From NCBI GenBank assembly GCA_026416455.1, contig JAOAFE010000001.1, positions 186,001 through 250,000 of the forward strand: a stretch of 64,000 nt of DNA. The letters run 5' to 3'. This document shows, piece by piece, positions 22,000-63,774 of this stretch. A model generated the notes under the pieces. That model was given only the letters and a program-made list of their open reading frames with translations, was not told the DNA's origin and ran no database searches. Both the position numbers and the translations under genes were made by a program. Numbering within the stretch: position 1 is the first letter of the stretch; each line of letters begins with the position of its first letter. The DNA comes from Syntrophales bacterium. Its GTDB lineage: Bacteria; Desulfobacterota; Syntrophia; Syntrophales; UBA8958.

Positions 22000-22424
22000 A
22001 AATCCTCACCATCTGCTGCAACTGGAGCCCTTGGGCCTGTCTGAATCAGGCACAGATGGCAGGTTTTGTTTTGCCCGAGAATCTGAAGGTCATCCGTGTC
22101 ATGTGTATAGGCCGCATTAATCAGGCCCTCATTTTGAAGGCCTTCGAGTTCGGGGCGGATGGAGTGCTCCTACTTGAATGCCATGATGAAGACTGTCGCT
22201 ACGGGCCGGGACCGGCTGTAGGACACGGAAATGTGCAAAGAGTAAGAAAACTGCTCGATCTCTTGGGTATCGATCAACATCGGTTGGTTGAAAAGAGCTT
22301 TGGCGCCCATGAAAAGACGGAACTTGCACAGGCCATAGAGGATTTTGCTGATACCATAGAGCGCCTAGGACCCATCACTCAAAAGGAAAGAAAGGCTGAT
22401 CATTATGGTGGATGTGAGACTTGA
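21990..22424 (+). CDS. MvhD/FlpD-like hydrogenase iron-sulfur subunit
   Basis: 144 residues from GTG 21990, with a G-rich ribosome site (AGGGGGG) about ten bases upstream. Family features are the N-terminal CCNWSPWACLNQAQ, VIRVMCIGRI, and ECHDEDCRYGPG, matching the delta subunit that passes electrons to HdrA in methanogens (there with one [2Fe-2S] cluster). No hydrogenase genes are nearby, so here the donor is more likely the flavoprotein encoded just before it, with which it overlaps by ten bases. It also overlaps the HdrCB-like gene by 20 bases. Confidence 0.88.
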   Translation: MSVKILTICCNWSPWACLNQAQMAGFVLPENLKVIRVMCIGRINQALILKAFEFGADGVLLLECHDEDCRYGPGPAVGHGNVQRVRKLLDLLGIDQHRLVEKSFGAHEKTELAQAIEDFADTIERLGPITQKERKADHYGGCET

Positions 22425-23568: not shown

Positions 23569-23597
23569 GTAAGCGATAAAAAAGTAAGGAGTAGCGT

Positions 23598-37833: not shown

Positions 37834-40800
37834 ATGAAAGAAAGAATGCTCCCTCTAATCCAAATCCTTGAGGGAATGGCGAAAGGTAACGATATTCAGC
37901 TCATTCGGATGGGGGACCTTGCAGAAGAGTTAAGACCTTTAGGGGAAGCTCTCAACCAAGTCCTAAGAAAATTTGTCTCTCCGGGAGAGAAAACTCACGT
38001 AGATGAGCGCCTTCAGTCTGTATTCGATCGCATGCGGGAGGCGTATGTGGAAACGGACCTCACCGGTCGTATTCGATTTTTCAATCCTTCCCTCGTGCGA
38101 AATTCGGGATACGAACGAGAAGAACTAATGGGGATGAGCTTTGATCAGCTCATCGATGAAAAAGACGTCCCCTGGGTAGTAAGGAAGGTGCTTCATGTGA
38201 TATCGACCGGCCAGCCATGCCGTGATTTAGAATTCACCGCCCGGCGAAAAGACGGAAGTCTCTTCCCCGTCGTTGCCCATGTGGATCTGGTATACGGAGC
38301 GGACGGCTCCCCCGATGGGATTTTTGGGACTTTGAGAGACTTGTCTCCCGTAATTCAGGCGGAAAGGGAGCGGGTTCGGTTGGAAAAACATTACCGGGAG
38401 GTCCTTGATGCTCTTGATGAGGCCTATTTAGAGTGTGATTTGCGTGGTAATATTACTTATGTCAATGATACCGCCTGCCGCATTCTTAGATTAAGGCGAG
38501 AAGAGTTCATCGGTCAAAATTTTCGTCAGTTCCTGCCTCCCACCTCGGCGAAGAAGCTGAGAAAAATCTTTGGTGACATTTACGAAACCGGTAAACCGGC
38601 CATGTTTGTCGATTTCCCCGCCATCCTCGAGGGGAATGAAGAGAGAATTTTCGAAATCAAGGCGGCTTTGCTTAAGGACGATGAGGGCAAACCCATCGGC
38701 TTTCGTATTCTTACCTCCGATGTGACGGAGTATCGAAAAACTCAGCATGCCCTGATGGAAAGTGAGCAAAAGTACCGCATGATCGTTGAAAACATGAGCG
38801 AATCCATATGGACGATGGATTTGAATCTCCGCCATACGTACCAAAGCCCCTCAGAAGTGAAGATGACGGGTTATACACCAGAGGAGATATTGCAGGTGCC
38901 CATTGAACAGATGCTCCCGCCGGCATCTTTAGAACGCGCCTGGGACGTTTTAACAAGGGCATTGGAGGCAGAACGGGAAGGGAAAACGGTTCCTCAGGAA
39001 CCTTATAAGATGGAAATCCAGGTGCGCCGGAAAGACGGCTCTCTCATCTGGGAAGAGGTGGCAGCTACCTTCCAGCGAGACGAGGAGGGAAAACCGATCG
39101 GTCTACTATGTGTGGCGAGAGACATTACAGACCGAAAGAGACTGGAGGAGGAACATGAACACGTCCGACGTGCCCTGGAAGAAAGCGAAAAAAAATTACG
39201 ACTCATAATAGACAACCTGGGGGAGGCCATTTGGCTCTTCGATCTCGACCTAACCAACGAAGAGATGATTAGCCCCGGCGATTTGGCCGTCACGGGATAT
39301 ACACCGGAAGAAATATACGCCATGCCCATAAACGAATTTCTCCTGCCTGACTCATTTGAGCTTGGCATGAAAGTCCTTGAAGAGGAGTTAGCTAAGGAGC
39401 AGAGTGGAGAGCCGATAGACCCCATCCGGACGCGAACGCTGGAAGTAAAACTTCGCCGCAAGGAGGGGGGATTTATCTGGTACGAGATAAAGGCCCGGTT
39501 TTTGAGGGATGAGAACGGAAAGCCGACAAAAATTCTGCTTGTGGGTCGCAATATAACGGATAGAAAACAGGCGGAAGAAGCGTTGGAAAATAGCGAGCGA
39601 AAATATCGGATGATTGTGGAGAATATGTACGAATCCGTTTGGTCTCTGAGTCTGGACCTAAAAACGAAAAACTACATAAGTCCTTCAGAAGTGTCCATGA
39701 CCGGTTATACGCCCGATGAAATTGTTGACATGCCCTTAGAAGAACTCGTATTGCCCGATTCTCTGGAATTGGGGAAGCAGATTCTCGCCGAAGAATTAGC
39801 CAGAGAAGAAATCGGAGAGGTCGTAGACCCTAACCGATCGAGAACGTTTGAGATAAAACTGAAACATAAAGACGGCCATATCGTCTGGGAAGAAGTGACC
39901 GCTACCTTCGAACGGGATAAAGAAGGAAGGCCTACAGGCATTTTGCTGGTTGGCAGAGATATAACGGAGAGGAAGAAGGCAGAGGAAGAAAGGGAAAGAC
40001 TGGAGCGTCAGCTCATCCAGGCCCAAAAGATGGAAAGTGTAGGACGTCTGGCCGGAGGCATTGCCCACGATTTTAACAATGTGCTGGCCGTCATCCTAGG
40101 GACGGTGGATGTGCTCAAGATAAAGCTTCCTCCCATCGATGCCCTCTTTAGCACAGTAAAGGAAATAGAGCAGGCCGCCTTACGGGCGCGGGATATTACG
40201 GCCCAACTTCTCGCCTTTTCCCGGAAGCAGGTAGCGGAGCCTCGGGTGATAAAGATCAATTCCGTAATCGAACGTATGGCCAAGAATCTGTCTCGTCTGA
40301 TCGGTGAAGACATTTCAATTTCCTACCATCTGGACCCAACTCTCTGGCCGGTCAAGATAGATCCCATCCAGGTCGAGCAGGTGGTTATGAATATTGTGGT
40401 CAACGCGAGGGATGCTATGCCGGAGGGAGGGAGACTGACCATTGAGACGACCAATGTGGTGCTCGATGACGAATACTGTCAACAACACCTTGGCTTTCGG
40501 GCGGGGGAGTATGCGCTCCTCAGTATCAGCGATAATGGAACGGGAATCCCCCCCGATGTGCTCCCTTACATTTTCGATCCTTACTTTACGACCAAAGAGC
40601 CGGATCGAGGGACGGGCCTCGGGTTGGCTACCGTCTACGGCATTGTGAAACAGAATGAAGGCTATGTGAATGTATATAGCGAGCTGGGCCAGGGTACGAC
40701 CGTAAAGATCTACCTGCCCCGCTCCCGGGAAGAAGTGAAGGAAGAAGAGAGGGTGAAAGAGCCCATCTCTCTACAAGCCCCCTATCGGGTTTTGGTGGTG

Positions 40801-41148
40801 GAAGATGACGAGGCCGTTTTGGACATCACCGTTCAGATGCTAAAGCTCCTCGGTTGTGACACCTGGGCTTTCTCTTCTCCGGAGAAGGCATTAAAGTTTT
40901 TGCTCCAGAGCGGAAGAGAGGTAGATATCGTTATTACCGATGTCATCATGCCGGGAATGACGGGGAAAGAACTAATGGAACGGGTTAAACAAGTGAGGCC
41001 AGAGGCGTCTTTTATTTTTATGTCCGGCTATACGGCCAACGTCATTGCCCATCATGGAATTCTCGAGGAGGGCATCATCTATCTTCAAAAACCATTCACC
41101 ATCGTTGACCTATCGGCCCGCCTCAGCCAAGCTATGAATCAAGGGTAG
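37834..41148 (+). CDS. hybrid sensor histidine kinase with five PAS domains and receiver domain
   Basis: 1104 residues, no membrane segment, so cytosolic. After a short lead (1-65) come five PAS units at about 66-180, 185-305, 306-435, 440-575 and 580-710. Units 3, 4 and 5 are very alike (each with TGYTP-(E/D)-EI and an R(D/N)ITDRK- or RDITERK-type end) and look like a recent tandem expansion. The dimerisation domain has phospho-acceptor His745 in GGIAHDFNN; the ATPase domain has NIVVNARDAMP and DNGTGIPP; the C-terminal receiver has phospho-acceptor Asp1036 in ITDVIMPG and a terminal KPFT lysine. The output response regulator is not adjacent. Confidence 0.92.
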   Translation: MKERMLPLIQILEGMAKGNDIQLIRMGDLAEELRPLGEALNQVLRKFVSPGEKTHVDERLQSVFDRMREAYVETDLTGRIRFFNPSLVRNSGYEREELMGMSFDQLIDEKDVPWVVRKVLHVISTGQPCRDLEFTARRKDGSLFPVVAHVDLVYGADGSPDGIFGTLRDLSPVIQAERERVRLEKHYREVLDALDEAYLECDLRGNITYVNDTACRILRLRREEFIGQNFRQFLPPTSAKKLRKIFGDIYETGKPAMFVDFPAILEGNEERIFEIKAALLKDDEGKPIGFRILTSDVTEYRKTQHALMESEQKYRMIVENMSESIWTMDLNLRHTYQSPSEVKMTGYTPEEILQVPIEQMLPPASLERAWDVLTRALEAEREGKTVPQEPYKMEIQVRRKDGSLIWEEVAATFQRDEEGKPIGLLCVARDITDRKRLEEEHEHVRRALEESEKKLRLIIDNLGEAIWLFDLDLTNEEMISPGDLAVTGYTPEEIYAMPINEFLLPDSFELGMKVLEEELAKEQSGEPIDPIRTRTLEVKLRRKEGGFIWYEIKARFLRDENGKPTKILLVGRNITDRKQAEEALENSERKYRMIVENMYESVWSLSLDLKTKNYISPSEVSMTGYTPDEIVDMPLEELVLPDSLELGKQILAEELAREEIGEVVDPNRSRTFEIKLKHKDGHIVWEEVTATFERDKEGRPTGILLVGRDITERKKAEEERERLERQLIQAQKMESVGRLAGGIAHDFNNVLAVILGTVDVLKIKLPPIDALFSTVKEIEQAALRARDITAQLLAFSRKQVAEPRVIKINSVIERMAKNLSRLIGEDISISYHLDPTLWPVKIDPIQVEQVVMNIVVNARDAMPEGGRLTIETTNVVLDDEYCQQHLGFRAGEYALLSISDNGTGIPPDVLPYIFDPYFTTKEPDRGTGLGLATVYGIVKQNEGYVNVYSELGQGTTVKIYLPRSREEVKEEERVKEPISLQAPYRVLVVEDDEAVLDITVQMLKLLGCDTWAFSSPEKALKFLLQSGREVDIVITDVIMPGMTGKELMERVKQVRPEASFIFMSGYTANVIAHHGILEEGIIYLQKPFTIVDLSARLSQAMNQG

Positions 41149-42553
41149 CAGTAAAACGGCGCCTTTTTTCTGCATACCAGGCCAGGTTTTTCATCGCCCG
41201 CACGGCGTGGAGGTGATCATCGAGTACGGGAATACCCATCTCCTTCATTTTAGAGATCGCTTCCTTCGTCTGGTCGGTGGGGTGGAACACATGGACCGTG
41301 ACCACGATGAGTTTTTCCGTGGCAGTGTAAACGTCAATAATGTCTCGGGAGATGACAGAGGCGCTGAAATCGGTCAGGGCCGTGTTGACGGCTATCATGT
41401 CGAAACTGTGATCCATTACAAGAGCCCGTAGGCATTTCCCCAACATATGAGGGTCCGAGCCCAGCACGGAGGTCATATCAACGGGATTGGCGGCGGAGCC
41501 GAAGGGAGGGAGGAAACGGGCAATCTGCCGTCTTGTCTTTTCTTCCATTTCCGGCACTTCCAGCCCCCATTCTTCTAATTTATCTGCCATAAAAACGCCG
41601 GCTCCACCGGAGACGGAAAGTACAGCTACTCTCCTACCCCGAGGTAGACGACGGGCCCGATGGACCTCTACGAAGGACGTAAGTTCTTTGAGAGATTCTA
41701 TGCGGATGATTCCTACCTGCCGGAAGAAGGCATCGTAGATCGCGTCTTCACCCGCAATCGAGCCCGTATGGGAATAAGCAGCCCGGGCTCCAGCTTTCGT
41801 CTTTCCCAGTTTGATCATTAAAATGGGTTTCCCCCGTTCTAGGGCCTGGAGGGCGGCGTAGCGTAGTTTTCGTCCGTCCTTTGCTCCCTCCAAGTAACCT
41901 CCGATGATTTCTGTCTCTCGGTGGTAGCGAACCATATACTCAAGGAAGTCGGCAAATTCCGTATCGGCCTCGTTTCCCACACTGACGAAGGAGCTAAAAC
42001 CGACTCCCTCTTCTACCGCCTGGGAGTAAATCATAGCGCCGAAGGCACCGCTTTGGGTAATGAACCCCAGCGTCATGGGATGGACTGGTTCGATGTCCAC
42101 AATATTGGCGAAAGATGCCATAACCGAAAGGGGCAAATTGACGATCCCCACGCAGTTAGGTCCCAAAAGTCTTATATTTAGGATTTTTGCCTTTTCCCTC
42201 AGCTCTTCTTGAAGCTTTCTCCCTTCCGGCCCGATCTCCGCGAAGCCGGAGGTAAAAATCACGGCCACCTTTACCCCTTTACGACCCGCTTCATCCAATA
42301 CCGACAGAACTCCCTGGGCGGGTACACTGATGATCACCATGTCAACATCGCCCGGTACCTCGATCAGGGATGCATAACAGGTTAGACCCCTCAGCTCCCC
42401 GTATTGCTTGTTGACGGGAAAGATTTTTCCCGGAAATCCTCTCTTCAGCAGGGCATTTAAACAACGTCCTCCAGGTTTGGTGAGATCCGAAGACGCACCC
42501 ACGAGGGCAATAGAGCGGGGCTGAAAAAAATAGGATAAATCACTGTCGGACAT
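41132..42553 (-). CDS. ADP-forming acyl-CoA synthetase alpha-subunit-like protein
   Basis: 473 residues, matching the alpha part of the ADP-forming acetyl-CoA synthetase family. The CoA-binding Rossmann domain starts with RSIALVGASSDLTKPGG, followed by succinyl-CoA-synthetase-like ligase domains with LLGPNCVGIVN, FITQSGAFG and the phosphohistidine loop SHTGSIAGEDAIYDA. The ATP-grasp beta part is not in the same polypeptide and no gene for it is next door, so the protein either pairs with a distant subunit or uses the domains in another acyl-CoA reaction. Its 3' end overlaps the preceding kinase by 17 bases; it is divergent from the second kinase. Confidence 0.87.
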   Translation of the reverse strand: MSDSDLSYFFQPRSIALVGASSDLTKPGGRCLNALLKRGFPGKIFPVNKQYGELRGLTCYASLIEVPGDVDMVIISVPAQGVLSVLDEAGRKGVKVAVIFTSGFAEIGPEGRKLQEELREKAKILNIRLLGPNCVGIVNLPLSVMASFANIVDIEPVHPMTLGFITQSGAFGAMIYSQAVEEGVGFSSFVSVGNEADTEFADFLEYMVRYHRETEIIGGYLEGAKDGRKLRYAALQALERGKPILMIKLGKTKAGARAAYSHTGSIAGEDAIYDAFFRQVGIIRIESLKELTSFVEVHRARRLPRGRRVAVLSVSGGAGVFMADKLEEWGLEVPEMEEKTRRQIARFLPPFGSAANPVDMTSVLGSDPHMLGKCLRALVMDHSFDMIAVNTALTDFSASVISRDIIDVYTATEKLIVVTVHVFHPTDQTKEAISKMKEMGIPVLDDHLHAVRAMKNLAWYAEKRRRFTATLDS

Positions 42554-42668
42554 GCTGAAACCCCTCCTTCCTGCTTGCGCCTCTCATAGTCGATTTTTTC
42601 TTCCCTGTCGATACCCTATTGATAATTTCCCTCTCTGTGGTAGAAACTATCTCGAAGGAGGGACCGCA

Positions 42669-44600
42669 ATGGAAAAAGAAGATTTACTGGAAGAAATCAA
42701 TCGCCTCCAGAAAGTCATCACCGAGCTAAGGGCAAGCGAAGGAAGATACCGAAAATTCTTGGAAGACTTGCCGGATGGGTGTTTTGAGATCGACTTAAAG
42801 GGTCGCTTCACCTTCTGCAATGAGGCCCTCGCATCTTCGAAGGGATACAGTAGGGAAGAATATCTCCAGCTGACACCGGAGAAGCTATTTCCTCCCGAGG
42901 AATTGCAGCGGGTCATGGAGGTATTCCAACGGGTTTACGAAACGGGGAAACCCGAACCGGCCATAAGTTATAAGATGTTTTGCCGAGATGGCTCCGTGAG
43001 AGTGTATGAGATGTCCATCTCCCTTATCCGGGATGAGAAAGGGCAGGCGATGGGCTTTCGCGGTATTTGCCGGGATGTGACGGAAAGGGAGAAGGTGGAG
43101 GCAGAAAATGTCCTCTACCGGGAGTTCATCGAAAACATTGACGACGGCTGTTGGGAGGTGGACTTACGGGGAAACTATACATACCTTAATCGGGCCGCAG
43201 CCCACCGACATGGATACACGCCTCAGGAGCTGATAGGCAAGAACTTCGGCCATCTCATGCGCCCCGAAGAGGTTAAGAGGGTGAGAAAAGTCTTCAGTGA
43301 AATATATCGTACCGGCACCCCCGGCTTTGTTAGCGATTACGAGGTATTAGGCAAAGATGGAGATATCCATTACCTCGATGTATCGGCGACACTGATCCGC
43401 GATAAAGACGGAAAACCCGTAGGCTTTCGGGGTGTAAGCCGAGATGTGACGGAGAGAAAGAGGCTCCAGGAACAGATGATACGATCCCAGAAGTTTGAGG
43501 CCATTGCCACCCTTGCCGGGGGTATTGCCCATAGTTTCAACAACATCTTGATGGGTATTCAAGGACATGTGGACCTCATGCTCATAGAATCAGAGGAGGG
43601 TAGCGAAACGTATCAGCGTCTAAAGGCGATCGAAGGGCAGATTAAGAATGCCGCCGAACTTACGAAACAACTTCTCACCTATGCCCAGATCGGGCGTTTT
43701 GAGATGAAGGTTTTGAATCTCAACGTCATCCTTGACCGAATCGCCTCCCTCGTTTCCCTCACGAAGAAGGCGATAAGAATAAAAAGAGATTTTGCCCCGG
43801 ACCTTTTTTCCGTCAAGGCCGACACTGGTCAGATGGAGCAGGTGTTTATGAATCTATTCATCAACGCCTGGCAGGCTATGCCCGGTGGAGGCGTCATCAC
43901 CCTCAAAACGGAAAACGCTTACCTTGCGCCTGCCGAGGCGGTCAAATACGGAGTTAAAGCAGGCAACTACGTAAAGGTGACGGTGGCCGACACGGGGCTG
44001 GGCATGGATGCCGAAACCTTGTCGCGCATTTTCGACCCCTTCTTTACGACGAAGGAAGTGGGGCAGGGTACCGGATTGGGTTTGGCGGCGGTCTACGGGA
44101 TCGTAAGGAAGCACGGAGGGATAATAGATGTAAGAAGTGCACCCGATCGGGGTACGACGTTTATGATCTTTCTGCCTGCCGTGGAGGAAATGGTGGAAAA
44201 ACGAGAGGAAACCGGGGAAGAGAAAAGAGGAAAGAAAAAGATACTGGTCGTGGATGATGAGGCCATGGTTGCTCAGGTGACAACGGCCATGCTTAAGGCC
44301 TTGGGGTATGAAACCCTTACTGCCCGGTCGGGGGGGGAAGCGGTTAGGATATTCCGGGAGCATAAGGATGAAATCAGTCTCGTGATCATGGATATGACCA
44401 TGCCCGAGGGAGGGGGTGTGGCGGCCATAGGTAAGATCAAGGCCTTTGATCCTCAGGTGCACATAATTGCTATGAGCGGCTTTGCCCTTGAGAGGGAGGC
44501 GAGGACCCTTTTAGAGCAGGGAATGATTAAGGACTTCTTGCAAAAACCATTTCGTCTTGACGATTTGTCTCAAGTGGTAAGAGACGTGTTGGCCCAATAA
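42669..44600 (+). CDS. hybrid sensor histidine kinase with two PAS domains and receiver domain
   Basis: 643 residues from ATG 42669, which has AAGGAGGG about six bases upstream; an open frame reaching 42552 has no family sequence and a coding start within the neighbour's start. A coiled-coil lead (MEKEDLLEEINRLQ) precedes two PAS units (about 18-145 and 146-265). His288 in GGIAHSFNN is the phospho-acceptor; NLFINAWQAMP and FDPFFTTKEVGQGTGLGL belong to the ATPase domain. The C-terminal receiver has Asp575 in VIMDMTMPEG and a closing KPF. No membrane segment. It shares its architecture with the kinase at 37834 and is likely a paralogue. Confidence 0.92.
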   Translation: MEKEDLLEEINRLQKVITELRASEGRYRKFLEDLPDGCFEIDLKGRFTFCNEALASSKGYSREEYLQLTPEKLFPPEELQRVMEVFQRVYETGKPEPAISYKMFCRDGSVRVYEMSISLIRDEKGQAMGFRGICRDVTEREKVEAENVLYREFIENIDDGCWEVDLRGNYTYLNRAAAHRHGYTPQELIGKNFGHLMRPEEVKRVRKVFSEIYRTGTPGFVSDYEVLGKDGDIHYLDVSATLIRDKDGKPVGFRGVSRDVTERKRLQEQMIRSQKFEAIATLAGGIAHSFNNILMGIQGHVDLMLIESEEGSETYQRLKAIEGQIKNAAELTKQLLTYAQIGRFEMKVLNLNVILDRIASLVSLTKKAIRIKRDFAPDLFSVKADTGQMEQVFMNLFINAWQAMPGGGVITLKTENAYLAPAEAVKYGVKAGNYVKVTVADTGLGMDAETLSRIFDPFFTTKEVGQGTGLGLAAVYGIVRKHGGIIDVRSAPDRGTTFMIFLPAVEEMVEKREETGEEKRGKKKILVVDDEAMVAQVTTAMLKALGYETLTARSGGEAVRIFREHKDEISLVIMDMTMPEGGGVAAIGKIKAFDPQVHIIAMSGFALEREARTLLEQGMIKDFLQKPFRLDDLSQVVRDVLAQ

Positions 44601-52893: not shown

Positions 52894-54777
52894 TTACCTA
52901 ATCTTTGCGCCCTTCTGCGGGGTTTGGTCGAAAGAAAGGAGTGTAAGCTTTCCCTCAGGCGTATCGGTCGCAAGCAACATGCCGCGTGACTCGACGCCCA
53001 TGAGCTTGGCCGGTTTTAGGTTGGCTACAACGGCAATGTACTTACCTATAAGGTCAGCCGGATGATAATCTTCGGCGATGCCTGCCACAATAGTCCTCTC
53101 TTCACCAATATCCACGGTAATCTTAAGGAGCTTCTTTGACTTGGGTATGGCCTCGGCATGGACTATCTTACCCACCCGAATGTCAACTCGTTCAAACTCT
53201 TCAAAAGTTATTTCTGGCTTTTGTGTAGTCATCTCTTTGGGTACCTCGTAAGTAACGCGAGGGAAAAGGGCTTCTATTTTCTTCACCGTCCCGTCCCACG
53301 GTTGCTTTCTAAATTCGTTTATGGAGTCGAGATCTTTGAGTTTGGGGTCTTCCACCCCTAAGTGGGATAGAATCTTGTCTGCCGCGTGAGGCATGACGGG
53401 CGAAACCAAGATGGCGATAAAGCGAAGCGACTCAAGGAGATGGTAAATTACGGTTTTGAGTCTAGACCTAGAATTTTCCTCTTTGGCGAGACGCCACGGT
53501 TCTTCTTCGACAATGTATTTGTTCGTGCGGTTAATGAATTCCCATAGGACGATTAATGCTTTATGCAGACTCAGATCTTCAAAGCATTTTTCCACTTCAC
53601 CTTTGGTTCTGACCGCTGCATCTCTCAGGTCGAGGTCCGATGCCGATTCTCCTTCGGGTTGGGGGATGCGACCATCAAAATATTTAATGGCCATCGTTAT
53701 AATCCGACTTACGAGATTACCCAAGTCGTTGGCCAGATCGGAATTCAAGCGGTTCACAAAGGCTTCTTCGTTGAAATTGGCATCGAGACCGAAAACCATG
53801 TCGCGGAGGAGGAAATAGCGAAAAGCATCGAGGCCGTACTTGTCTTTTAGCTCCAAAGGTCTTACGACATTACCGAGTGATTTTGACATTTTGCTCTGAT
53901 CTACGTTCCAGTATCCGTGGACATTGAGATGGCGGTAAGGTTCTATTCCCGCCGCTTTTAGCATCGTTGGCCAGTATACGGCATGGGGCTTCAGAATATC
54001 CTTCGCAATGAGGTGCTGAGCTGAGGGCCAGAAGATTTTGAAGTTTTCCCCTTCAGGATATCCCAGGGCGGAAATATAGTTTATGAGGGCATCGAACCAA
54101 ACGTAGGTGACGTAATTGGAATCGAAGGGTAGTTCTATTCCCCACGTTAGGCGGGTTTTGGGTCTTGATATGCACAAATCTTCTAAAGGTTCTTTTAGGA
54201 AAGATAGGACCTCGTTTCTGTACCTCTCCGGTCGGATGAAATTGGGGTTTTTCTGAATGTAATCTATCAACCAGTCCTGGTACTTGCTCATCCGGAAGAA
54301 ATAATTGCTTTCCTTTCTGAATTCCGGCTCGCTCTGATGATCGGGGCATTTCCCGTCGACAAGTTCTTTTTCTGTGTAGAACCTTTCGCAACCTACGCAG
54401 TAGAATCCTTCATAGTGACCGAAGTAGATGTCCCCTTGGTCGTAGACCTTTTTCAATATGTACTGAACCGTTTTTTTATGGTTTTCATCCGTTGTACGGA
54501 TAAAGTAATCGTTCGTCACAGCGAGTTCAGGCCATAGGGCCTTGAAGAGGGCACTGATCTGGTCCGCATACGCCTGGGGCTCCATGCCCGCCTTGGTGGC
54601 GGCTTCAACAATTTTGTCTCCGTGTTCGTCGGTTCCCGTGAGGAAGAAGGTACGATACCCGGCCAGTCGATAATAGCGGGCAAGCACGTCGGCAACGATG
54701 GTTGTATAAGCGTGCCCAATATGGGGTGGGGCATTGACGTAATAGATGGGTGTGGTGACGTAGTATACTTTCTCCAT
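52894..54777 (-). CDS. metG: methionyl-tRNA synthetase with C-terminal tRNA-binding domain
   Basis: 627 residues from ATG 54777 (one base after the preceding gene's stop; an in-frame TTG at 54786 is less likely). It charges tRNA-Met. Class I motifs are PPHIGHAYT near residue 16 and KMSKSLGN; zinc-type cysteines sit in CVGCERFY and CPDH. The last 100 residues are the EMAP-II/Arc1p-like tRNA-binding domain (FERVDIRVGKIVHAEAIPKS), found in the dimeric enzyme form. It is the last gene of the minus-strand run. Confidence 0.96.
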   Translation of the reverse strand: MEKVYYVTTPIYYVNAPPHIGHAYTTIVADVLARYYRLAGYRTFFLTGTDEHGDKIVEAATKAGMEPQAYADQISALFKALWPELAVTNDYFIRTTDENHKKTVQYILKKVYDQGDIYFGHYEGFYCVGCERFYTEKELVDGKCPDHQSEPEFRKESNYFFRMSKYQDWLIDYIQKNPNFIRPERYRNEVLSFLKEPLEDLCISRPKTRLTWGIELPFDSNYVTYVWFDALINYISALGYPEGENFKIFWPSAQHLIAKDILKPHAVYWPTMLKAAGIEPYRHLNVHGYWNVDQSKMSKSLGNVVRPLELKDKYGLDAFRYFLLRDMVFGLDANFNEEAFVNRLNSDLANDLGNLVSRIITMAIKYFDGRIPQPEGESASDLDLRDAAVRTKGEVEKCFEDLSLHKALIVLWEFINRTNKYIVEEEPWRLAKEENSRSRLKTVIYHLLESLRFIAILVSPVMPHAADKILSHLGVEDPKLKDLDSINEFRKQPWDGTVKKIEALFPRVTYEVPKEMTTQKPEITFEEFERVDIRVGKIVHAEAIPKSKKLLKITVDIGEERTIVAGIAEDYHPADLIGKYIAVVANLKPAKLMGVESRGMLLATDTPEGKLTLLSFDQTPQKGAKIR

Positions 54778-54778
54778 G

Positions 54779-55570
54779 TTACGCAAGTTCCCTTATCTTG
54801 ATTGTTTTTATCTCTCCATTTTCCATTTCGAGAGCTATTTCTTCTTTCAAGACATCCTGACGTATTACCTTACCTTGGCCAAAGGGTGTGGTGATAATTT
54901 TCCCACATTTCGGCATGTTTTTCTTCAGCTCTTGGTAGGTTTCGTATTCGAACGCCAGGCAGCACATAAGTCGACCACAGAGGCCTGATATTTTTTCCGG
55001 ATTTAAGGCCATGTTCTGTTCTTTTGCCATTTTTACGGATACGCGGTCGAGGTTTTGTAAGAGAGTAGCACAACACACTTCTCGGCCGCAGATACCGAGG
55101 CCTTTTAATATCCTGGTTTCATGACGGGCTCCGATTTGCCTCAATTCAATGCGGGTGCGATATTTTTGTACGAGGTCTTTCACCAGCTCGCGAAAATCGA
55201 CCCTATTTTCGGCCGTGAAGTAGAAGATTATCTTGCTTCGATCAAAGAGATACTCCGTAGCCACGACTTTCATAGGTAGCCCCCGGCTCTTTACCCTTTC
55301 CTTACAAAACTCTTGAGCCTGTCTCTCTAATTCTTGGTTTTCTTCCAGGGTGTTCATGTCATCTTCGTTGGCGATACGTAAGACAGGTTTTAATTCCTCG
55401 GCGCTTTGATCGTCTTCTAGCTCTTTGATATCCGTTACCGTGTAGCCAAAGACAATTCCTTGATCCGTTTGGCAAATGACGGCCATCCCTTTTTTCAATG
55501 GAAGATCTCCGGGATCGAAGTAGTAAATCTTCCCTTCCCGTTTGAATTTGACCCCGATCGCTTTAGCCAT
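54779..55570 (-). CDS. ricT: PSP1-domain protein, RicT/YaaT-like
   Basis: 263 residues. The PSP1 domain carries ICGREVCCATLL and GLCGRLMCCLAFE, with the paired cysteines typical of the RicT/YaaT family. In Bacillus RicT is part of the Fe-S-containing Ric complex acting on RNA maturation; in other bacteria the role is less clear. It sits between holB and metG, an order also common in other bacteria (tmk-holB-ricT-metG), so the function call rests on both domain and neighbourhood. Confidence 0.88.
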   Translation of the reverse strand: MAKAIGVKFKREGKIYYFDPGDLPLKKGMAVICQTDQGIVFGYTVTDIKELEDDQSAEELKPVLRIANEDDMNTLEENQELERQAQEFCKERVKSRGLPMKVVATEYLFDRSKIIFYFTAENRVDFRELVKDLVQKYRTRIELRQIGARHETRILKGLGICGREVCCATLLQNLDRVSVKMAKEQNMALNPEKISGLCGRLMCCLAFEYETYQELKKNMPKCGKIITTPFGQGKVIRQDVLKEEIALEMENGEIKTIKIRELA

Positions 55571-55582
55571 CCCTTCTTTACC

Positions 55583-56563
55583 TCAAGGAAAAGATAAACT
55601 AAACAGTGAGGCGTCCAAAGTCAACGATTTATTTGCGTTCAGTTCCAGATCTAGTTGGGCTTGTGTTAGGGTTTGGATGTTTAAAAGGATTTGTCGGGGA
55701 GAGAGCTGGTGCGCCAGGATTCTTATTATTTCTAAAAAATCGACGTTGGCAATACCTTCTGTCGACCCCGTTTCTTTAAGCCATAAGGCATCCCTAAATA
55801 AGGTGGTAAGAACGGTCAATTTGTCTTCAAGCTCCATTTTTTCTTGCGAAATGAAACGACTTAAGATTAAGGGTGCCAGGGCTTTGCTCTTTATGGCCGA
55901 TGTAAGGGCATGATGCATTTCTTCTCGAAATGAAAAGTATTCGTCATTGGCAAGGGAAAGGGCTTTGCTTATGCGGCCGTCGGTACAGGCTGCAATGATC
56001 TCGGCCTGCTCTCTAGAGAGTTTAGTCTGATCCAGGAGGAAACGGGTAAGTTGGCTTCTCGCCAAAGGAGAAAAAGCAATGAGCTGCGAGCGAGAGATGA
56101 TCGTTGGGGGGAGTCTATAAGGCCGAGCCGTAATAAGTAGGAAGAAATTGCCTGGCCTTGGCTCTTCAAGCGTCTTCAGAATAGCATTGGCCGCCGGCTC
56201 ACTCATGTGATCTGCTTCGTCGATTATTACTACCCGGCGGAGGCCTTCTAGGGGATGAAGGGTTGTGGCCATGATCGCATCTCTGATGTCTTGAATTTTT
56301 ATGGTCGCAACCGTGGGGGAAATAATGACGGTATCCGGATGGCTACCCTTCATGGTTCTTTCGCAGGTAGAACAATGGCCACAGCCTGCACCTTCCTCTG
56401 ATGACGGGCAAAGGAGGCTGGCGGCAAAAGAAAGGGCAACCGTTCTTTTGCCAATTCCCTCGGGCCCGCAAAAGACGTAGGCATGGGCTATCTTTTTCGT
56501 TGAGACCACGTGTTTGAGGAAGGCGATTTGCTTCTCATGACCGTAAATGTGATGGTAGACCAT
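55583..56563 (-). CDS. holB: DNA polymerase III delta' subunit
   Basis: 326 residues. Clamp-loader AAA+ protein: Walker A region FCGPEGIGKRTVA, zinc cysteines CGHCSTCERTMKGSHPD, and IIDEADHMSEPAANAILKTLEEP as Walker B and sensor region. The ATG at 56563 lies inside the end of tmk (29-base overlap), a usual arrangement for tmk-holB. It loads the sliding clamp at replication forks. Confidence 0.93.
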   Translation of the reverse strand: MVYHHIYGHEKQIAFLKHVVSTKKIAHAYVFCGPEGIGKRTVALSFAASLLCPSSEEGAGCGHCSTCERTMKGSHPDTVIISPTVATIKIQDIRDAIMATTLHPLEGLRRVVIIDEADHMSEPAANAILKTLEEPRPGNFFLLITARPYRLPPTIISRSQLIAFSPLARSQLTRFLLDQTKLSREQAEIIAACTDGRISKALSLANDEYFSFREEMHHALTSAIKSKALAPLILSRFISQEKMELEDKLTVLTTLFRDALWLKETGSTEGIANVDFLEIIRILAHQLSPRQILLNIQTLTQAQLDLELNANKSLTLDASLFSLSFP

Positions 56564-57191
56564 AGCCTTTTTCCCGACAGAGTTTTTCTACGAGCGCCAT
56601 TACTGTTTTGTGGACTTGAATTACGTCTCGCGAGGCATTTACAACATGGAATCGTTTTGGTTCCCTTTGGGCCAGTGTCAAGTAACCACGGCGAACGCGA
56701 TGGTGGAAATCCCTGTCTTCCCTTTCAAACCGATCGCATTCCCCGTTCCTCGCTTTTAGCCTTAAGAATCCTTCTTCTACCTCTAGGTCGAAAAGAAGGG
56801 TCAGATCTGGATAGAGGCCGCTCGAGATGAAGGTATAAATTTTCCTAATCGCTTCTACCTCTAGGCCTCGTCCATACCCCTGATAGGCGATCGTGGCATC
56901 CAGGAATCGGTCGCAGAGGACCATTTTCCCGGCCGCGAGGGCAGGTATGATTACGTTTTTTACATGCTGGGCCCGGTCGGCCATGAAGAGAAGTAACTCC
57001 GCCTCCGGACAAATAGTCACGTTGTTTTTTCCCAGCAGGATTTCCCGGATGCTTTTCCCTAAGTCTGTACCACCAGGTTCAGCCGTTACTAGAACGTCGT
57101 AACCTTTCTCCGTGAGGGATTTGGCCGCTAAATTAAGTTGGGTGGTTTTTCCACATCCCTCGATACCTTCAAAGGTGATGAAAAGCCCCAT
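56535..57191 (-). CDS. tmk: thymidylate kinase
   Basis: 218 residues. It phosphorylates dTMP to dTDP. P-loop FEGIEGCGKTTQ, the EPGGTDLGKSIR substrate motif and DRFLDATIAYQGYGRG lid region are all present. It is preceded by the small ferredoxin gene (six-base gap) and overlaps holB. Confidence 0.95.
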   Translation of the reverse strand: MGLFITFEGIEGCGKTTQLNLAAKSLTEKGYDVLVTAEPGGTDLGKSIREILLGKNNVTICPEAELLLFMADRAQHVKNVIIPALAAGKMVLCDRFLDATIAYQGYGRGLEVEAIRKIYTFISSGLYPDLTLLFDLEVEEGFLRLKARNGECDRFEREDRDFHHRVRRGYLTLAQREPKRFHVVNASRDVIQVHKTVMALVEKLCREKGYGLPSHLRS

Positions 57192-57197
57192 TTTAGT

Positions 57198-57398
<201 letters not shown>

Positions 57399-57416
57399 TC
57401 ATGGGAAAGGTCTTTT

Positions 57417-57638
57417 TTATGCCGACCTCACTTCTTTTACTTCTGGAACTTCCTGTTTTAGATACCTCTCTATGCCGTTCTTCAACGTCATCTGTGACAT
57501 GGGGCACCCCCGGCAGGCACCGGTAAGTTTAACCGTGACGATTCCGTCTTCGGTAACATCGATGAGTTCCACGTCGCCTCCGTCCGCCTGAAGATTGGGC
57601 CTTATTTTAGATAGGGCATCGCTGACTTTTTCCTTCAT
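57417..57638 (-). CDS. NifU-like C-terminal domain (NFU) protein
   Basis: 73 residues, the stand-alone NFU domain. [18 protein letters not shown] holds the CxxC that carries a transient [4Fe-4S] cluster for transfer to client proteins. It is encoded next to a ferredoxin and three genes from ispH, both Fe-S proteins, which fits a role in Fe-S delivery. The upstream AGGAGG is clear. Confidence 0.92.
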
Positions 57639-57652
57639 TTTTCAAACCTCCT

Positions 57653-58249
57653 TTAGTGGGGCATTTCGTCGAGCATCTTTTTGGCCAGGCTGGTGGCTAC
57701 ACTTTCCAATTTTGGGGCGAATAGGGAGTAAGATTCATCTATGTGGTGGCTTCCTTTCCACATGATCTTGCCCGTCTTGGCTTCAACTAACCTGAGACTC
57801 AGCCCTACTTTTGCTATTTTTTTGTTACCTTCCTTCGAGTAAAGCCAGTAATCTACGCTTCCTAAAAGGATGGCATCTACTCGGGCAATCTCACCAAGCC
57901 GATGGCTGAGAGCGGGGTCTGAAAAATTTACCATCTTTAGCTTGGTGGTGTAATCGACGGCTGTGCGACGGAATTCCTCGTTGGACTTTAACATGACTTT
58001 CATGCTCTCGCCAGCCACGATGTCTTCAAACCATTTTCGCTCCGCAAGGATGCCGGCAATAATCATGTCTATTGTCTCTCTTGCCTCTTCATACGGTCCC
58101 ACCTCAAGGGGTAGGACGGCCAGTCTCTTCGGTTTAAAATCTTTCGCCGCCGGGTCTAACTGGGAATATCTGATGCCGCCGCAACCGATAATTACGGCCG
58201 CGCACAAAAACACAACCAATGTAATCTGGTAAACCCTTTTCCTTCTCAT
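57653..58249 (-). CDS. predicted outer-membrane or periplasmic lipoprotein
   Basis: 198 residues with a signal peptide and lipobox IIGC giving the lipidated Cys at about residue 23. The mature part (LAVLPLEVGPYEEARETIDMII, RVDAILLGSVDYW, LRLVEAKTGKIMWKG) resembles the GNA1162/CsgG-like family that often assists envelope assembly. Exact function is unknown. It lies between ispH-ubiA and the NFU gene; membership of the same run is by orientation and short gaps. Confidence 0.78.
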   Translation of the reverse strand: MRRKRVYQITLVVFLCAAVIIGCGGIRYSQLDPAAKDFKPKRLAVLPLEVGPYEEARETIDMIIAGILAERKWFEDIVAGESMKVMLKSNEEFRRTAVDYTTKLKMVNFSDPALSHRLGEIARVDAILLGSVDYWLYSKEGNKKIAKVGLSLRLVEAKTGKIMWKGSHHIDESYSLFAPKLESVATSLAKKMLDEMPH

Positions 58250-58266
58250 ACACCCTCCTTAATTTC

Positions 58267-60006
58267 TTATCTCAGCTGATTCCACAACATCCAGCCCACC
58301 GTGCCCAGGCCTGATAAATAGTAACTTAACTCGAGCAAACCCTCCTTATTCAACCCCGAAAACTGTGGTTTCCTAACATAAAGCCAATTGCAAATCCATA
58401 GGTAAAATATGACGGGGGTGAGGAAAAGGGACAAACTTGAGGTCCAGCCGACAAAGTGTGATGTAACGAGCAATATAAGGAGGATCAAGGCAACGACGTT
58501 TATAAGACGATTGGTTAGTTTTGATCCTATCAAGACGGGAATGGTTTCCCGCCCGATGAATTTGTCGCTTTGGATGTCTTGCAGATCGGAAATGATGGAG
58601 CGCAGAAAGACTAATCCAGAGATAAAGACAATCGGCAAGATGGGTCCTTCCGGTGAATTGTCCGCAGAGACAAAAGGTATAACCGCGGTTACGGTCGCCC
58701 AGGCTAGGGCCATAACCACGTTTTTAGAACCTGGAATGTCGCGAAGGCTCCTGAATTTCCAGCGGCGGGGTAATAATTTTACTGTATAGAGCAACCCTCC
58801 TGCCAGGAGAGCGATGAGTATCGATAGGGCTAAAAAACCTAAAAGGGAGCTAAGCAATATTGAGGTGACGAGAGAAAAAAAAGCTATCCATAAAAGCGTC
58901 TTTTCCCGACGGCGATACATTTCTTCTCTGAAGGAGCCTATGATGGTGCTTGCCTCCCGATCGATAAATCGGTTAATGGTGTGCATGGAAAAAACGTACG
59001 TTGAGGCCACGGAGAAAAAGATCACGGAAGGAGCTATTCCTCCCCATAAACATGCTGTAAAGGTGAGAATGCCGGCACCGAGAGCGGAAAACAAGTCCGT
59101 TTTGACTGCCCATCTCCATGTCCTATACAAAAGATGGATCATGTTTTGTCGACGTGAATGGGTCATGGCAATGGCTTCTATTACCCGCTCTATGATCCAG
59201 TTCGGTGTTGATGCGCCCGCTGATATGCCTACGTTATCAACCTTTCTGATCTCATTAAAGGGTAGTTCATCGGCCGTTTCCACATGATGAACCGGTTTCC
59301 CCGCTCGGGCAGCAAGGGTAGCCAGATGACGTGTGTTCGCACTATTTTTCCCACCTACGATGATGGTCATATCCATCTCATGAGCCAATTCCGCTACCTC
59401 TTTCTGTCGCATTTCCGTCGAATCGCAGATGGTGTCGAAAACGGTGGCGTGAGGGAATCTTTGTTTGATGGCCGAAACGATCGAGGCATACTTTTCATGG
59501 TTTTGTGTCGTCTGTGAAACGACGCATATGAGACTATGGGCGGGAATGTTTTGCACCTCTTCTAAACTATTTATGACCCATCCTTTCTCCCCCGCGTACC
59601 CTAGGAGTCCCCTCACCTCTGGATGTGCTCGGTCGCCAAAGATAACGACCAGATAGTTTTGAAGGGCAAACTTTTTTATAATGGCCTGCACATGTCCTAC
59701 TCGTGGGCAGGTGGCATCAACTATCTTTAATCCCAGCTCTTTTAGGCGGTGCCTTTCGACGGGAGAAATGCCATGGGCACGGACGACGACGAGGGATCCG
59801 GCAGGAAGTTTTTTCAAATCTTCTTCGTTCTCAATAGAAACGATGCCTCTGCGCTTCAGTATTTCTACTGTCTGAGGGTTATGGATAAGAGGGCCATAAG
59901 TATATATGTTTCCATTTTCTTTATGGCGGGCGAGGTCTAAGACCATATCGACGGCCCGTTTAACACCCATGCAGAACCCAGCTGAGGGGGCAATTTTTAT
60001 GGGCAT
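58267..60006 (-). CDS. ispH: IspH (HMBPP reductase) fused to UbiA-like membrane prenyltransferase
   Basis: 579 residues. The first 285 are a complete IspH, the last enzyme of the MEP pathway: the three Fe-S ligands are Cys12 (SAGFCMGVKRA), Cys100 (DATCPRVGHVQ) and Cys194 (TICDSTEM), and SAGASTPNW closes the domain. The rest, 290 residues, is a polytopic membrane domain with the two UbiA aspartate-rich motifs: NRFIDRE (Asn345, Asp349) and DLQDIQSDKFIGRETIP (Asp474 to Asp481), plus the family's YTVKLLPRR and ALAWA segments. The frame is continuous with no stop. The second domain would attach a prenyl chain to an acceptor; which acceptor is unknown. Confidence 0.9.
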   Translation of the reverse strand: MPIKIAPSAGFCMGVKRAVDMVLDLARHKENGNIYTYGPLIHNPQTVEILKRRGIVSIENEEDLKKLPAGSLVVVRAHGISPVERHRLKELGLKIVDATCPRVGHVQAIIKKFALQNYLVVIFGDRAHPEVRGLLGYAGEKGWVINSLEEVQNIPAHSLICVVSQTTQNHEKYASIVSAIKQRFPHATVFDTICDSTEMRQKEVAELAHEMDMTIIVGGKNSANTRHLATLAARAGKPVHHVETADELPFNEIRKVDNVGISAGASTPNWIIERVIEAIAMTHSRRQNMIHLLYRTWRWAVKTDLFSALGAGILTFTACLWGGIAPSVIFFSVASTYVFSMHTINRFIDREASTIIGSFREEMYRRREKTLLWIAFFSLVTSILLSSLLGFLALSILIALLAGGLLYTVKLLPRRWKFRSLRDIPGSKNVVMALAWATVTAVIPFVSADNSPEGPILPIVFISGLVFLRSIISDLQDIQSDKFIGRETIPVLIGSKLTNRLINVVALILLILLVTSHFVGWTSSLSLFLTPVIFYLWICNWLYVRKPQFSGLNKEGLLELSYYLSGLGTVGWMLWNQLR

Positions 60007-60745
<739 letters not shown>

Positions 60746-60759
<14 letters not shown>

Positions 60760-62638
60760 GACTAAGAATCCTTCTTGCTGCCGAGATGATGCCCATTGTG
60801 TCTACCCCGTGGTCTCGGCGTTGTTCCTCCGGCGTTGCGTGTTCGACAAACACATCACCCACACCTAAACGACATATGCGTATGTCCGTGATGCCTTCTT
60901 CGGCCAAGAGCTCTAAAACAGCGCTCCCGAATCCGCCATTTAAAACATTTTCCTCCACCGTGACTAGGCATTTGACCTTTTCCGCCGTCTCTACGAGGAG
61001 TTTGCGATCTAACGGTTTCACGAAGCGGGCATTAATGACGCGGGTAGAGATCCCCTCTTCGGCCAATTTTTCTGCTGCCATCAGGGCCTCGTAAACAGGA
61101 GGGCCAAGCGCCAAGATAGCAAGATCGTCTCCGTCTCTTAAGATTGTGCCTTTCCCAATATCCAGTTGTCTTAAAGGAGTATTCATGTCCACCCCTCGAC
61201 CGTAACCCCGAGGATAACGGACGGCCACCGGGCCAGGGCTATAAATGGCCGTCTTTAGCATGTGCCGTAGTTCATCTTCATCCGCTGGTGCCATAATGAT
61301 TATTCCGGGGACCGCCCTTAAGTACGAAAGATCGAAGAGACCCTGGTGTGTAGCCCCGTCTTCTCCTACGAAACCGGCCCGGTCAAGGGCGAAAACAACA
61401 TGTAACTTTGCTAGGCAGACATCGTGGATAATCTGGTCGTAAGCCCGCTGCAAGAACGTCGAATATATGGCAACTACTGGGATGAAGCCCTCACGCGCCA
61501 AGCCAGCCGCAAAGGTAACACCGTGTTGCTCCGCAATTCCCACATCAAAAAAGCGTTCCGGTAACGTGCGGGCGAAGGCATCAAGTCCTGTGCCGAGGCT
61601 CATAGCTGCTGTGATCGCGACGATCCGGTTATCTTCCTGTGCGAGCCTAAGAAGTGTTTCTCCGAACACCTGTGTGTATGTGGGCGGTGAGGAAGGAGGT
61701 CTTTCCGCTATTTTTCCCGTTTCGAGAGAGAAGGGAGGGGTGCCGTGAAATCGTTCTGGTTCTTGTTCGGCATAGGGATAGCCTTTTCCTTTTTTCGTTA
61801 CTACATGCAACAGGATCGGGCCGGGAAATTCCTTGACATTTTCCAAGGTACGAATGAGGTGGTCAAGGCGGTGCCCATCTATTGGGCCTACGTAGGTGAA
61901 GCCGAGGTCTTCGAAGAGGGCACCGGGAAGAAACATGTTTTTTAATGCTTCTTCTATCTGTCGGATGAATTTCACCATGGATTCTCCGACGACAGGGGTG
62001 CTAAGGAGAAGATGTTTCAGCTCCGCCCTTACCTTGCGGGCTTTTTCCCCCGTCATGATGCCGCTCAAGTACGCGCTCAAGGCACCGACATTGGGTGAGA
62101 TGGACATTTCGTTATCGTTCAAGATAATGATGAGATCCTCTTTCCTATAACCACTCCAGTTCATACCTTCGAAGGCCATGCCCGCTCCCATGGAACCATC
62201 CCCTATAATGGCCACTATTTTGTGTTTTTCCTTCTTGAGTTTTCGGGCTTCGGCCAGTCCTGAGGCAACAGAAATGGACGTGCTACTGTGACCTGTATTA
62301 AAGACATCGTACGGGCTCTCCTCCATGCGGGGGAAGCCACTGATGCCGCCTTTCTGCCGCAAAGATGAAAATTTTTCCCGTCGGCCGGTGATGATCTTGT
62401 GGGCATACGCTTGGTGACCCACATCCCAGATAACCAAATCTTCCGGGGTGTTGAAGACATAATGCACGGCTAGTGCCAGTTCTACCGCCCCGAGGGAGGA
62501 TGCAAGATGTCCTCCCGTTTTAGATACGGTCTTCGTTATCAGCTCTCTTATTTCATTTGCCAGTTGAGATAGGGCACCAAGATCGAGGCCTCTTATATCT
62601 TTTGGATCCGATATGTTCTCTAAAATGCTCTTCGTCAT
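60746..62638 (-). CDS. dxs: 1-deoxy-D-xylulose-5-phosphate synthase
   Basis: 630 residues, normal length. First step of the MEP isoprenoid pathway: pyruvate plus glyceraldehyde-3-phosphate to DXP, TPP-dependent. GDGSMGAGMAFEGMN with NDNEMSI is the TPP site; the transketolase-like central domain (DVGIAEQHGVTFAAG) and C-terminal domain (GVGDVFVEHA) are complete. It starts one base after the ispA stop, so the two are coupled. Confidence 0.96.
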
Positions 62639-62639
62639 T

Positions 62640-63539
62640 TCAATACTCTCGCTCCATTACAAAAGTAGCCAAATGTCTTAAGGGGTCAGCTTTTTCATCA
62701 AAGCAACTCAATGCCTCAAGGGATTTTAGCACTTCCTCTTCCAACCTTCTTTTCGATTCATCTAACCCGAGCATGAGTGGAAAGGTTGATTTACCTCTCG
62801 AGGCATCACTGCCCGTATTTTTTCCCATGAGCTTCTTGTCTCCTACGACGTTTAGGATATCATCGGCGATTTGGAAAGCTAACCCCAGATGGTCGCCATA
62901 GGTGCCGAGAGCCGAGATTTCGTCTTCTTTTCCTCCGCCGAGAAAGGCTCCACTGGTCACGGAGACCCTGATCATAGCGCCTGTTTTTTTTTCGTGCATC
63001 CTTTTGAGGTCGGCCAGGGTAAGCTCCTTTCCTTCCGATTCTACATCCATGACTTGGCCGCCTACCATACCGGTTATACCGGCGGCTTGCGCCATTTCGT
63101 ACATCACCTGCAGGTATTTTTCGGCTTTGCTTCGATGAATAAGTCCTGACTGGGCCACAATGGCAAAAGCTTCCGTCAGAAGAGCGTCCCCTGCTAAGAT
63201 GGCCATTGCTTCTCCGAAAACCCGATGACAGGTCGGCCGGCCACGTCTGAAATCATCGTCATCCATAGCGGGCAGATCGTCATGGATGAGAGAGTAGGTG
63301 TGAATGAATTCAAGGGCGCAGGCGACGGGGAGTACCGAATCGATTTCTCCTCCCACTGCTTCCGCTCCTGCCAAACACAGGATGGGTCTTATTCTCTTAC
63401 CTCCCGCCAGGAGGCTGTATCTCATGGCCTCAATTATCGTATTGGGGGCACGGACAGGAGCCGAAATCATAAATTCGAGCCTTTCATCTATCAGTGCTTT
63501 TCTTTCCCTTAGATAGATAAAAAATTCCTCTCTATTCAT
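62640..63539 (-). CDS. ispA: farnesyl/geranyl diphosphate synthase family prenyltransferase
   Basis: 299 residues from ATG 63539; the frame open to 63584 overlaps xseB too far and adds only a basic tail. Both aspartate-rich motifs are visible: DDLPAMDDDD near residue 84 (first DDxxxxD motif) and QIADDILNVVGD near 218 (DDxxD-like second motif). It condenses IPP with DMAPP or GPP. The stop of xseB overlaps the start by eight bases. With dxs and ispH in the same run it supplies the prenyl diphosphates. Confidence 0.94.
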   Translation of the reverse strand: MNREEFFIYLRERKALIDERLEFMISAPVRAPNTIIEAMRYSLLAGGKRIRPILCLAGAEAVGGEIDSVLPVACALEFIHTYSLIHDDLPAMDDDDFRRGRPTCHRVFGEAMAILAGDALLTEAFAIVAQSGLIHRSKAEKYLQVMYEMAQAAGITGMVGGQVMDVESEGKELTLADLKRMHEKKTGAMIRVSVTSGAFLGGGKEDEISALGTYGDHLGLAFQIADDILNVVGDKKLMGKNTGSDASRGKSTFPLMLGLDESKRRLEEEVLKSLEALSCFDEKADPLRHLATFVMEREY

Positions 63540-63774
63540 CTTTTTCCGTTTTTTCTTCCACGAAAGGCGTAAAGGTAATCTCACCTTCTTCGTTTTTTAT
63601 CAGCATCTCCACTTTTCTTTCCGCTTCTTCCAGTTTCTTTGTGCAAATGCGCACAAGCTTGACTCCCTCCTCGAAGGCTTTCAAAGAATCTTCTAAAGAT
63701 AAATCTCCTCGCTCCATAATTTCTACTATTTCTTCTAGCCTTCTTACAGCGTCCTCAAACTTTTCTTTCGCCAT
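63532..63774 (-). CDS. xseB: exodeoxyribonuclease VII small subunit
   Basis: 80 residues, typical length. FEDAVRRLEEIVEIMERGDLSLEDSLKAFEEGVKLV is the XseB family core (shown here as a continuous helical hairpin from residue 6 to 41), followed by a charged C-terminus. With XseA it makes a single-strand-specific exonuclease. It overlaps ispA by eight bases and lies one base after xseA. Confidence 0.93.
   Translation of the reverse strand: MAKEKFEDAVRRLEEIVEIMERGDLSLEDSLKAFEEGVKLVRICTKKLEEAERKVEMLIKNEEGEITFTPFVEEKTEKDE

Follow-up and report, generated by a model that had tools for sequence, protein, structure and literature searches.

The window (the whole stretch of DNA analyzed, 64,000 nucleotides of a Syntrophales bacterium contig) carries on its reverse strand the gene run ispA-dxs-tlyA-ispH/ubiA-lipo-tmk-holB-ricT-metG (52894-63584, (-)), of which tmk, holB, ricT, and metG were named by reading translations. 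The gene under study and its nearest neighbors are the following.

62640..63584, (-): ispA-type short-chain prenyl diphosphate synthase (NF045485 farnesyl diphosphate synthase, 380 bits vs a cut-off of 275)
60746..62638, (-): dxs, first enzyme of the MEP pathway (Pfam; gene order)
60007..60759, (-): tlyA-type rRNA methyltransferase gene, the upstream operon neighbor (TIGR00478, 237.6 bits; gene order conserved in the order)
58267..60006, (-): IspH-UbiA fusion gene (ATG start, one open frame, 579 aa, conserved in the order and the phylum)
57653..58249, (-): downstream gene with a lipoprotein-like signal peptide (no Pfam match; position conserved throughout the order)

That IspA and Dxs are encoded just upstream, as an earlier note on this DNA had claimed, was borne out by the family matches. 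The run from ispA to metG is conserved in most of the Syntrophales genomes examined, but not in the wider phylum. The ispA-dxs linkage, too, is confined to the order; elsewhere in the phylum, the fusion persists without it. There, the fusion is flanked by genes for Dus, RadC, ParB, GlyS, ATE, an SRP54-type GTPase, a glycosyltransferase, or a transposase, that is, by unrelated housekeeping genes without a shared theme, and no clue to an acceptor was found among these neighbors. The product of the downstream gene (57653-58249) is a short protein for which only a sub-threshold, LpoB-like match was obtained. Elsewhere in the window, a large flavin/Fe-S oxidoreductase and FlpD (MvhD-type) proteins are encoded in one cluster (18631-26033, (+)), which suggests heterodisulfide-reductase-like electron-transfer machinery, and two large multi-PAS hybrid histidine kinases lie near each other (37834-41148 (+) and 42552-44600 (+)).

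Within the fusion gene, two domains and a junction were delimited.

59170..60000, (-): IspH (LytB) domain, residues 3-279 (Pfam PF02401 (LYTB), E 1.1e-92, 310.6 bits)
59971..59973, (-): codon of Cys12, Fe-S cluster ligand position (Cys in 81/82 fusions)
59707..59709, (-): codon of Cys100, Fe-S cluster ligand position (Cys in 82/82 fusions)
59425..59427, (-): codon of Cys194, Fe-S cluster ligand position (Cys in 82/82 fusions)
59095..59169, (-): junction between the domains, residues 280-304 (in frame and without a stop, here and in 74/80 named loci)
58378..59025, (-): UbiA-type membrane domain, residues 328-543 (Pfam PF01040, E 1.2e-13, 51.4 bits; cut-off 34.2)

The open reading frame at 58267-60006 (-) contains no internal stop, and the in-frame fusion of IspH to a UbiA-type domain proposed in the earlier note was confirmed, as a single frame of 579 aa holds both Pfam domains above their cut-offs. 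Sequencing error or a missed stop as the origin of the fusion has a vanishingly small probability; no frameshift or missed stop was found near residue 285, and this reading was rejected because many independent genomes carry the same continuous, uninterrupted frame. The full in-frame fusion was recovered at 74 of the 80 independent named loci; at the remaining six, the frame ran off the contig start (four), was full but fell under the coverage filter (one), or was interrupted by an N-filled scaffold gap (one). An AlphaFold2 model built from 50 fusions (mean pLDDT 86.2, pTM 0.77) recovered both folds, and a Foldseek search run on this predicted model identified IspH and UbiA as separate domains.

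The fusion is also present in other genomes. In the family to which the organism belongs, it was found in 9 of 11 genomes with the full-length protein as query (45-52% identity besides self; frames uninterrupted except one split on its contig). A search with the UbiA half gave a match at E <= 1e-3 in 135 of the 149 genomes of the order; two of these were weak matches to another UbiA, leaving 133 clear members at about 40-53% identity. In the phylum, 132 of 345 genomes carried it (family profile, E <= 1e-10), many families being represented. Named matches came from Syntrophus, Smithella, Syntrophaceae, and other Deltaproteobacteria, which suggests that the order sampled is Syntrophales or one very close to it. 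In one genome of the set (G447, L265 5861-8263), a frame of 800 aa places 252 residues without a Pfam match ahead of IspH-UbiA, which may be an additional domain or result from a start called too far upstream.

The fusion is thus real, conserved, and of a kind already published. Rao et al (2015) described 47 such "Rosetta stone" proteins, the UbiA part being classified as PT_UbiA_5, and left the function of this part unassigned, separate UbiA/MenA being present (PMC4746011). Their full-length fusion could not be expressed, and they suggested a UbiA part that holds IspH at the membrane and consumes the downstream products of IspH (PMC4746011). The main idea of the earlier note, a membrane-anchored isoprenoid assembly point, repeats this proposal. 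The protein studied here agrees with the published ones in its N-terminal IspH with three cysteines, its C-terminal UbiA-type domain, its origin in the Deltaproteobacteria, and the separate MenA. It differs in two respects. All fusions were reported to occur in sulfate reducers, and two DxxxD repeats were stated for the UbiA part (PMC4746011), whereas motif I is altered here and this genome, together with several relatives, lacks a dsrA match. Specifically, no dsrA match was found in the present genome (96% complete) or in the fusion genomes G001, G002, G009, G012, G014, G015, and G084, but it was found in the fusion genomes G020, G126, G128, G186, G202, G185, and G347. Because several fusion genomes are without a dsrA match, the fusion is, judged from gene content, not confined to sulfate reducers, and the published generalization needs widening.

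IspH catalyzes the last step in making isoprenoid building blocks, the conversion of HMBPP to IPP/DMAPP. The IspH domain exceeded the curated cut-offs (PF02401, 310.6 vs 24.5 bits; TIGR00216, 293.5 vs 187.85 bits), and its predicted fold matched 3dnf_B with a target-normalized TM-score of 0.87. The description of the IspH half in the earlier note as intact, with three Fe-S cysteines, held, Cys12, Cys100, and Cys194 being kept in 81-82 of 82 fusions. The fused IspH is also the only one of the organism (a single match in a genome of 2.1 Mb, 96% complete). In three genomes of the same order (G095, G024, and G052), no IspH match was obtained, despite a listed completeness of 100% for G095; gaps in the assemblies or a different route to isoprenoids would explain this. 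The IspH-RPS1 fusions of Firmicutes and other anaerobes are similar in that IspH is fused at its own C-terminus, and the IspH part of PRK00087 was indeed the top NCBIfam match by E-value for the 579-aa protein. The score was, however, 318 vs a cut-off of 624, only model positions 1-282 were covered, and S1 repeats are lacking here.

Across the genomes of the order and phylum searched, no stand-alone member of the fused UbiA subfamily was found. Near-complete profile matches all lay in frames of >=565 aa, the sole exception being a protein of 287 aa (G023). It was rejected as a stand-alone homolog because it belongs to another UbiA type: the match (26%) covers part of the domain only, and its motif I, NRLTDVEED, keeps the Asp lost in the fusions. 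Partial profile matches were located at contig ends where inspected (G259, G334, G224, G377, and G307 were left out of this inspection). Apparently split or short fusions in G077, G068, G074, G108, G085, G133, G053, G089, and G417 turned out to be contig-end truncations, and an apparently broken one in G146 to be an N-filled gap. Among the short cases, only one true unfused IspH remained, in G021, a genome of the same order (99% complete). There, the operon is intact and IspH, at the conserved operon position (L248 9678-10586), stops shortly past the equivalent of residue 284; the lipoprotein-like gene starts about 50 bases past this stop, and no member of the fused UbiA subfamily was found elsewhere in the genome. 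Judged from this one draft assembly, IspH can be kept in its usual operon place after loss of the UbiA half.

The earlier note had also seen in the membrane half both UbiA aspartate motifs. This held in part: motif II is intact, whereas motif I departs from the consensus at two of its three Asp positions.

58948..58983, (-): altered first Asp motif, residues 342-353, H342-x-x-N345-R346-x-x-D349-x-x-x-S353 (alignment with MenA, MqnP-like, UbiA, and CyoE proteins and across fusions)
58564..58587, (-): second Asp motif, residues 474-481, D474-x-x-D477-x-Q479-x-D481 (conserved across 82 fusions)

That the membrane half has UbiA relatives is nevertheless clear from the PF01040 match above its cut-off and from the predicted UbiA fold. 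The predicted helical bundle, of roughly nine helices, extends to residue 578 in the AlphaFold2 model, and Foldseek returned 4od5 (E 5.7e-4, TM-score 0.69) and 4tq3 (E 7.1e-4, TM-score 0.59; both scores target-normalized and for the predicted model), which are UbiA homologs with bound prenyl diphosphate. A sequence-profile search of the PDB with the UbiA half gave no match. Relative to the motif I consensus NDxxDxxxD, N345 and D349 are kept, whereas R346 and S353 occupy the other two positions; the DxxxD of motif II (D477 and D481) is intact. In AfUbiA, two Mg2+ are bound via N68 and D72 of motif I and D198 and D202 of motif II, and alanine changes at these ligands impair or abolish GPP binding; in EcMenA, the equivalents of these ligands and of Tyr139 are required for function (PMC4106721). 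In the alignment, AfUbiA N68, D72, D198, D202, and Y139 match N345, D349, D477, D481, and Y407, all of which are present in the 579-aa protein.

Across the fused family, the metal site may be re-built: a near-invariant His precedes the motif I Asn by one turn, the second Asp is variable, the third Asp is largely lost, and motif II has an extra acidic residue. The third Asp of motif I occurred in 32/32 comparison proteins but in only 2/35 fused halves. Position 349 was Asp in 7 of the 48 Syntrophales fusions, Asn in 27, Ser in 7, Gly in 4, and Thr in 2, whereas it was Asp in 31 of the 34 fusions from the phylum outside Syntrophales. H342, three residues ahead of N345, was found in 48/48 Syntrophales fusions and in 33/34 fusions from the rest of the phylum, but in none of the comparison proteins. 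Because it lies on the same face of the helix, H342 is a candidate metal ligand. D481 was present in 82/82 fusions and Q479 in 79/82, and position 474 was D or E in all. K/R428, W436, R469, D/E474, Q479, and E487 are specific, or nearly so, to the clade of fused halves. Y407, G485, and D481 are invariant across the 82 fusions and six more residues (H342, W436, R469, Q479, E487, and T488) are conserved at 95-100%, so the membrane half is under strong selection. The residue pattern of the metal site argues for a changed active site and against decay. Because D72A abolishes GPP binding by AfUbiA and the EcMenA equivalent loses function (PMC4106721), many relatives without Asp349 should not work as ordinary UbiA enzymes.

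For the phylogeny of the UbiA half, the fused halves were combined with E. coli UbiA, MenA, and CyoE, with both further UbiA proteins encoded in this genome, and with 20-odd UbiA proteins from related genomes. In the first tree, the fused halves grouped together with 100/100 support apart from one row in the wrong frame (L239); in a quick tree without this row, they were exclusive (support 0.78) and on a long branch. The UbiA half thus belongs to a clade of its own, apart from MenA-, MqnP-, UbiA-, and CyoE-type proteins. No curated NCBIfam UbiA model reached its cut-off with the 579-aa protein, the nearest, weak matches being PRK13591 (an uncharacterized prenyltransferase) and DGGGP-synthase-like models. 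The protein therefore could not be placed among the MenA, MqnP, or UbiA quinone prenyltransferases, as it neither clustered with the references nor reached a cut-off. Compared with the UbiA-superfamily prenyltransferases (AfUbiA, ApUbiA, MenA, MqnP, and DGGGP synthase), the fold and the positions N345, D349, D477, D481, and Tyr407 are shared here, whereas the separate clade, the lost third Asp of motif I, scores below every curated NCBIfam UbiA cut-off, and the clade-specific H342, K428, R469, and E487 set the fused family apart.

A role in quinone synthesis, which the earlier note had considered, is disfavored by these data. The genome encodes a separate MenA (contig C41, above the TIGR00751 cut-off) and a second MenA-like protein (contig C9); the gene for the latter (L075 14904-19538, G000 contig C9) has an AhbD/NirJ2-like radical SAM gene on one side and GlpC/GlpB-like genes on the other. 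MqnP-like or MenA-type genes also occur in other fusion genomes, and G002, from the same family and 97% complete, carries the fused UbiA only and no other UbiA gene. Because MenA is separate, because other fusion genomes have their own MqnP- or MenA-type genes, and because G002 has the fused UbiA alone, a quinone role for the UbiA half is unlikely. The UbiA fold and weak matches of a few family members to MenA-type NCBIfam models would agree with a MenA- or UbiA-like prenyltransferase of the quinone pathway placed beside its own C5 supply. Nevertheless, with the fused halves forming their own clade, and with the products of IspH being C5 whereas MenA uses long prenyl diphosphates, this assignment is highly improbable.

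The reading we prefer, with a probability of roughly 0.6, is that of a bifunctional, membrane-anchored IspH, the UbiA half of which is predicted to bind a prenyl diphosphate and to act on a non-quinone acceptor. The cytosolic N-terminal half would reduce HMBPP to IPP/DMAPP and, because the genome has no other IspH, would serve the whole cell. We infer that the most likely ligand of the C-terminal UbiA half in the membrane is a prenyl diphosphate, held by N345/D349, D477/D481, and Mg2+; any catalysis by this half would use the prenyl diphosphate on an acceptor other than a respiratory quinone precursor. The putative benefit of tethering would be that the fusion sets a 1:1 ratio and keeps IspH at the membrane, whereby the C5 supply step and the prenyl-consuming step in the membrane would be co-produced. 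The bifunctional reading is favored by both domains exceeding their cut-offs, the sole IspH, the wide occurrence of the fusion, the lack of a stand-alone subfamily member, the strong conservation, the folds of the model, the AfUbiA-type residues, and the separate MenA. Arguing against it are the low frequency of Asp at position 349 in Syntrophales (7/48), the missing UbiA half at the same operon position in G021, and the neighbors outside the order, which give no hint of the acceptor.

In the majority of Syntrophales members, N, S, G, or T replaces the metal ligand D349, with the other cavity-type residues invariant. This would also fit the main rival, in which the UbiA half serves as sensor and anchor, not as catalyst; it would bind prenyl diphosphate and regulate or localize IspH. 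In animal cells, HMG-CoA reductase is bound by the UbiA-family protein UBIAD1, which controls the degradation of the reductase and thus regulates an enzyme of the isoprenoid pathway (PMC9314443); the UBIAD1-HMGCR structure 8djk was among the Foldseek matches, and the domain was always joined to IspH in the genomes searched. In both cases, a UbiA-family protein is physically tied to a reductase that supplies isoprenoids, but UBIAD1 and HMGCR are separate proteins of the eukaryotic mevalonate pathway, which makes this an analogy only. A pure anchor would not need the invariant catalytic-type Tyr407 and D481, D349 is retained in 31/34 members outside the order, and UBIAD1 is also an enzyme. A purely sensing and anchoring role is thus unlikely, though it deserves consideration.

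The extra acidic residue of motif II bears on another alternative, namely, a role of the UbiA half as an intramembrane terpene synthase of the UbiA type instead of as a prenyltransferase. The motif II of the fused family, [D/E]xx[D/E]xQxD, resembles the QDxxDxxxD carried as motif II by UbiA-type terpene synthases (Tps1A and relatives; PMC9835599) in having an acidic residue three before the canonical Asp, and this residue (474) is mostly missing in MenA/MqnP-type proteins. In the terpene synthases, motif I reads NxxxG/AxxxD and its last Asp is required (PMC9835599), whereas the corresponding Asp (353) is lost in most fused members. In the present protein, motif I ends in S353 and motif II is SDxxDxQxD, so that the motifs of these enzymes are not matched. 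As there is also no terpene cluster around the gene, a terpene synthase appears improbable.

Beyond the bifunctional reading preferred here, we tentatively consider, as a doubtful but possible extension, that the UbiA domains linked to IspH form a branch of their own in which the metal site has been re-built. This branch may perform a prenyl reaction new among UbiA enzymes, or may sense prenyl diphosphates to control IspH, in either case only when joined to IspH.

The presence of the fusion is in itself not news, and its interest lies in the product of the UbiA half. Judged by the literature searched, four points go beyond what had been published: motif I is altered, stand-alone forms were not found in the genomes searched, the fusion also occurs outside sulfate reducers, and one genome shows a natural loss of the UbiA half. 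Most of the order and more than one third of the phylum genomes sampled keep a putative prenyl-using membrane activity joined to an isoprenoid supply enzyme, and the altered active site together with the natural loss in G021 makes the function of the UbiA half directly testable.
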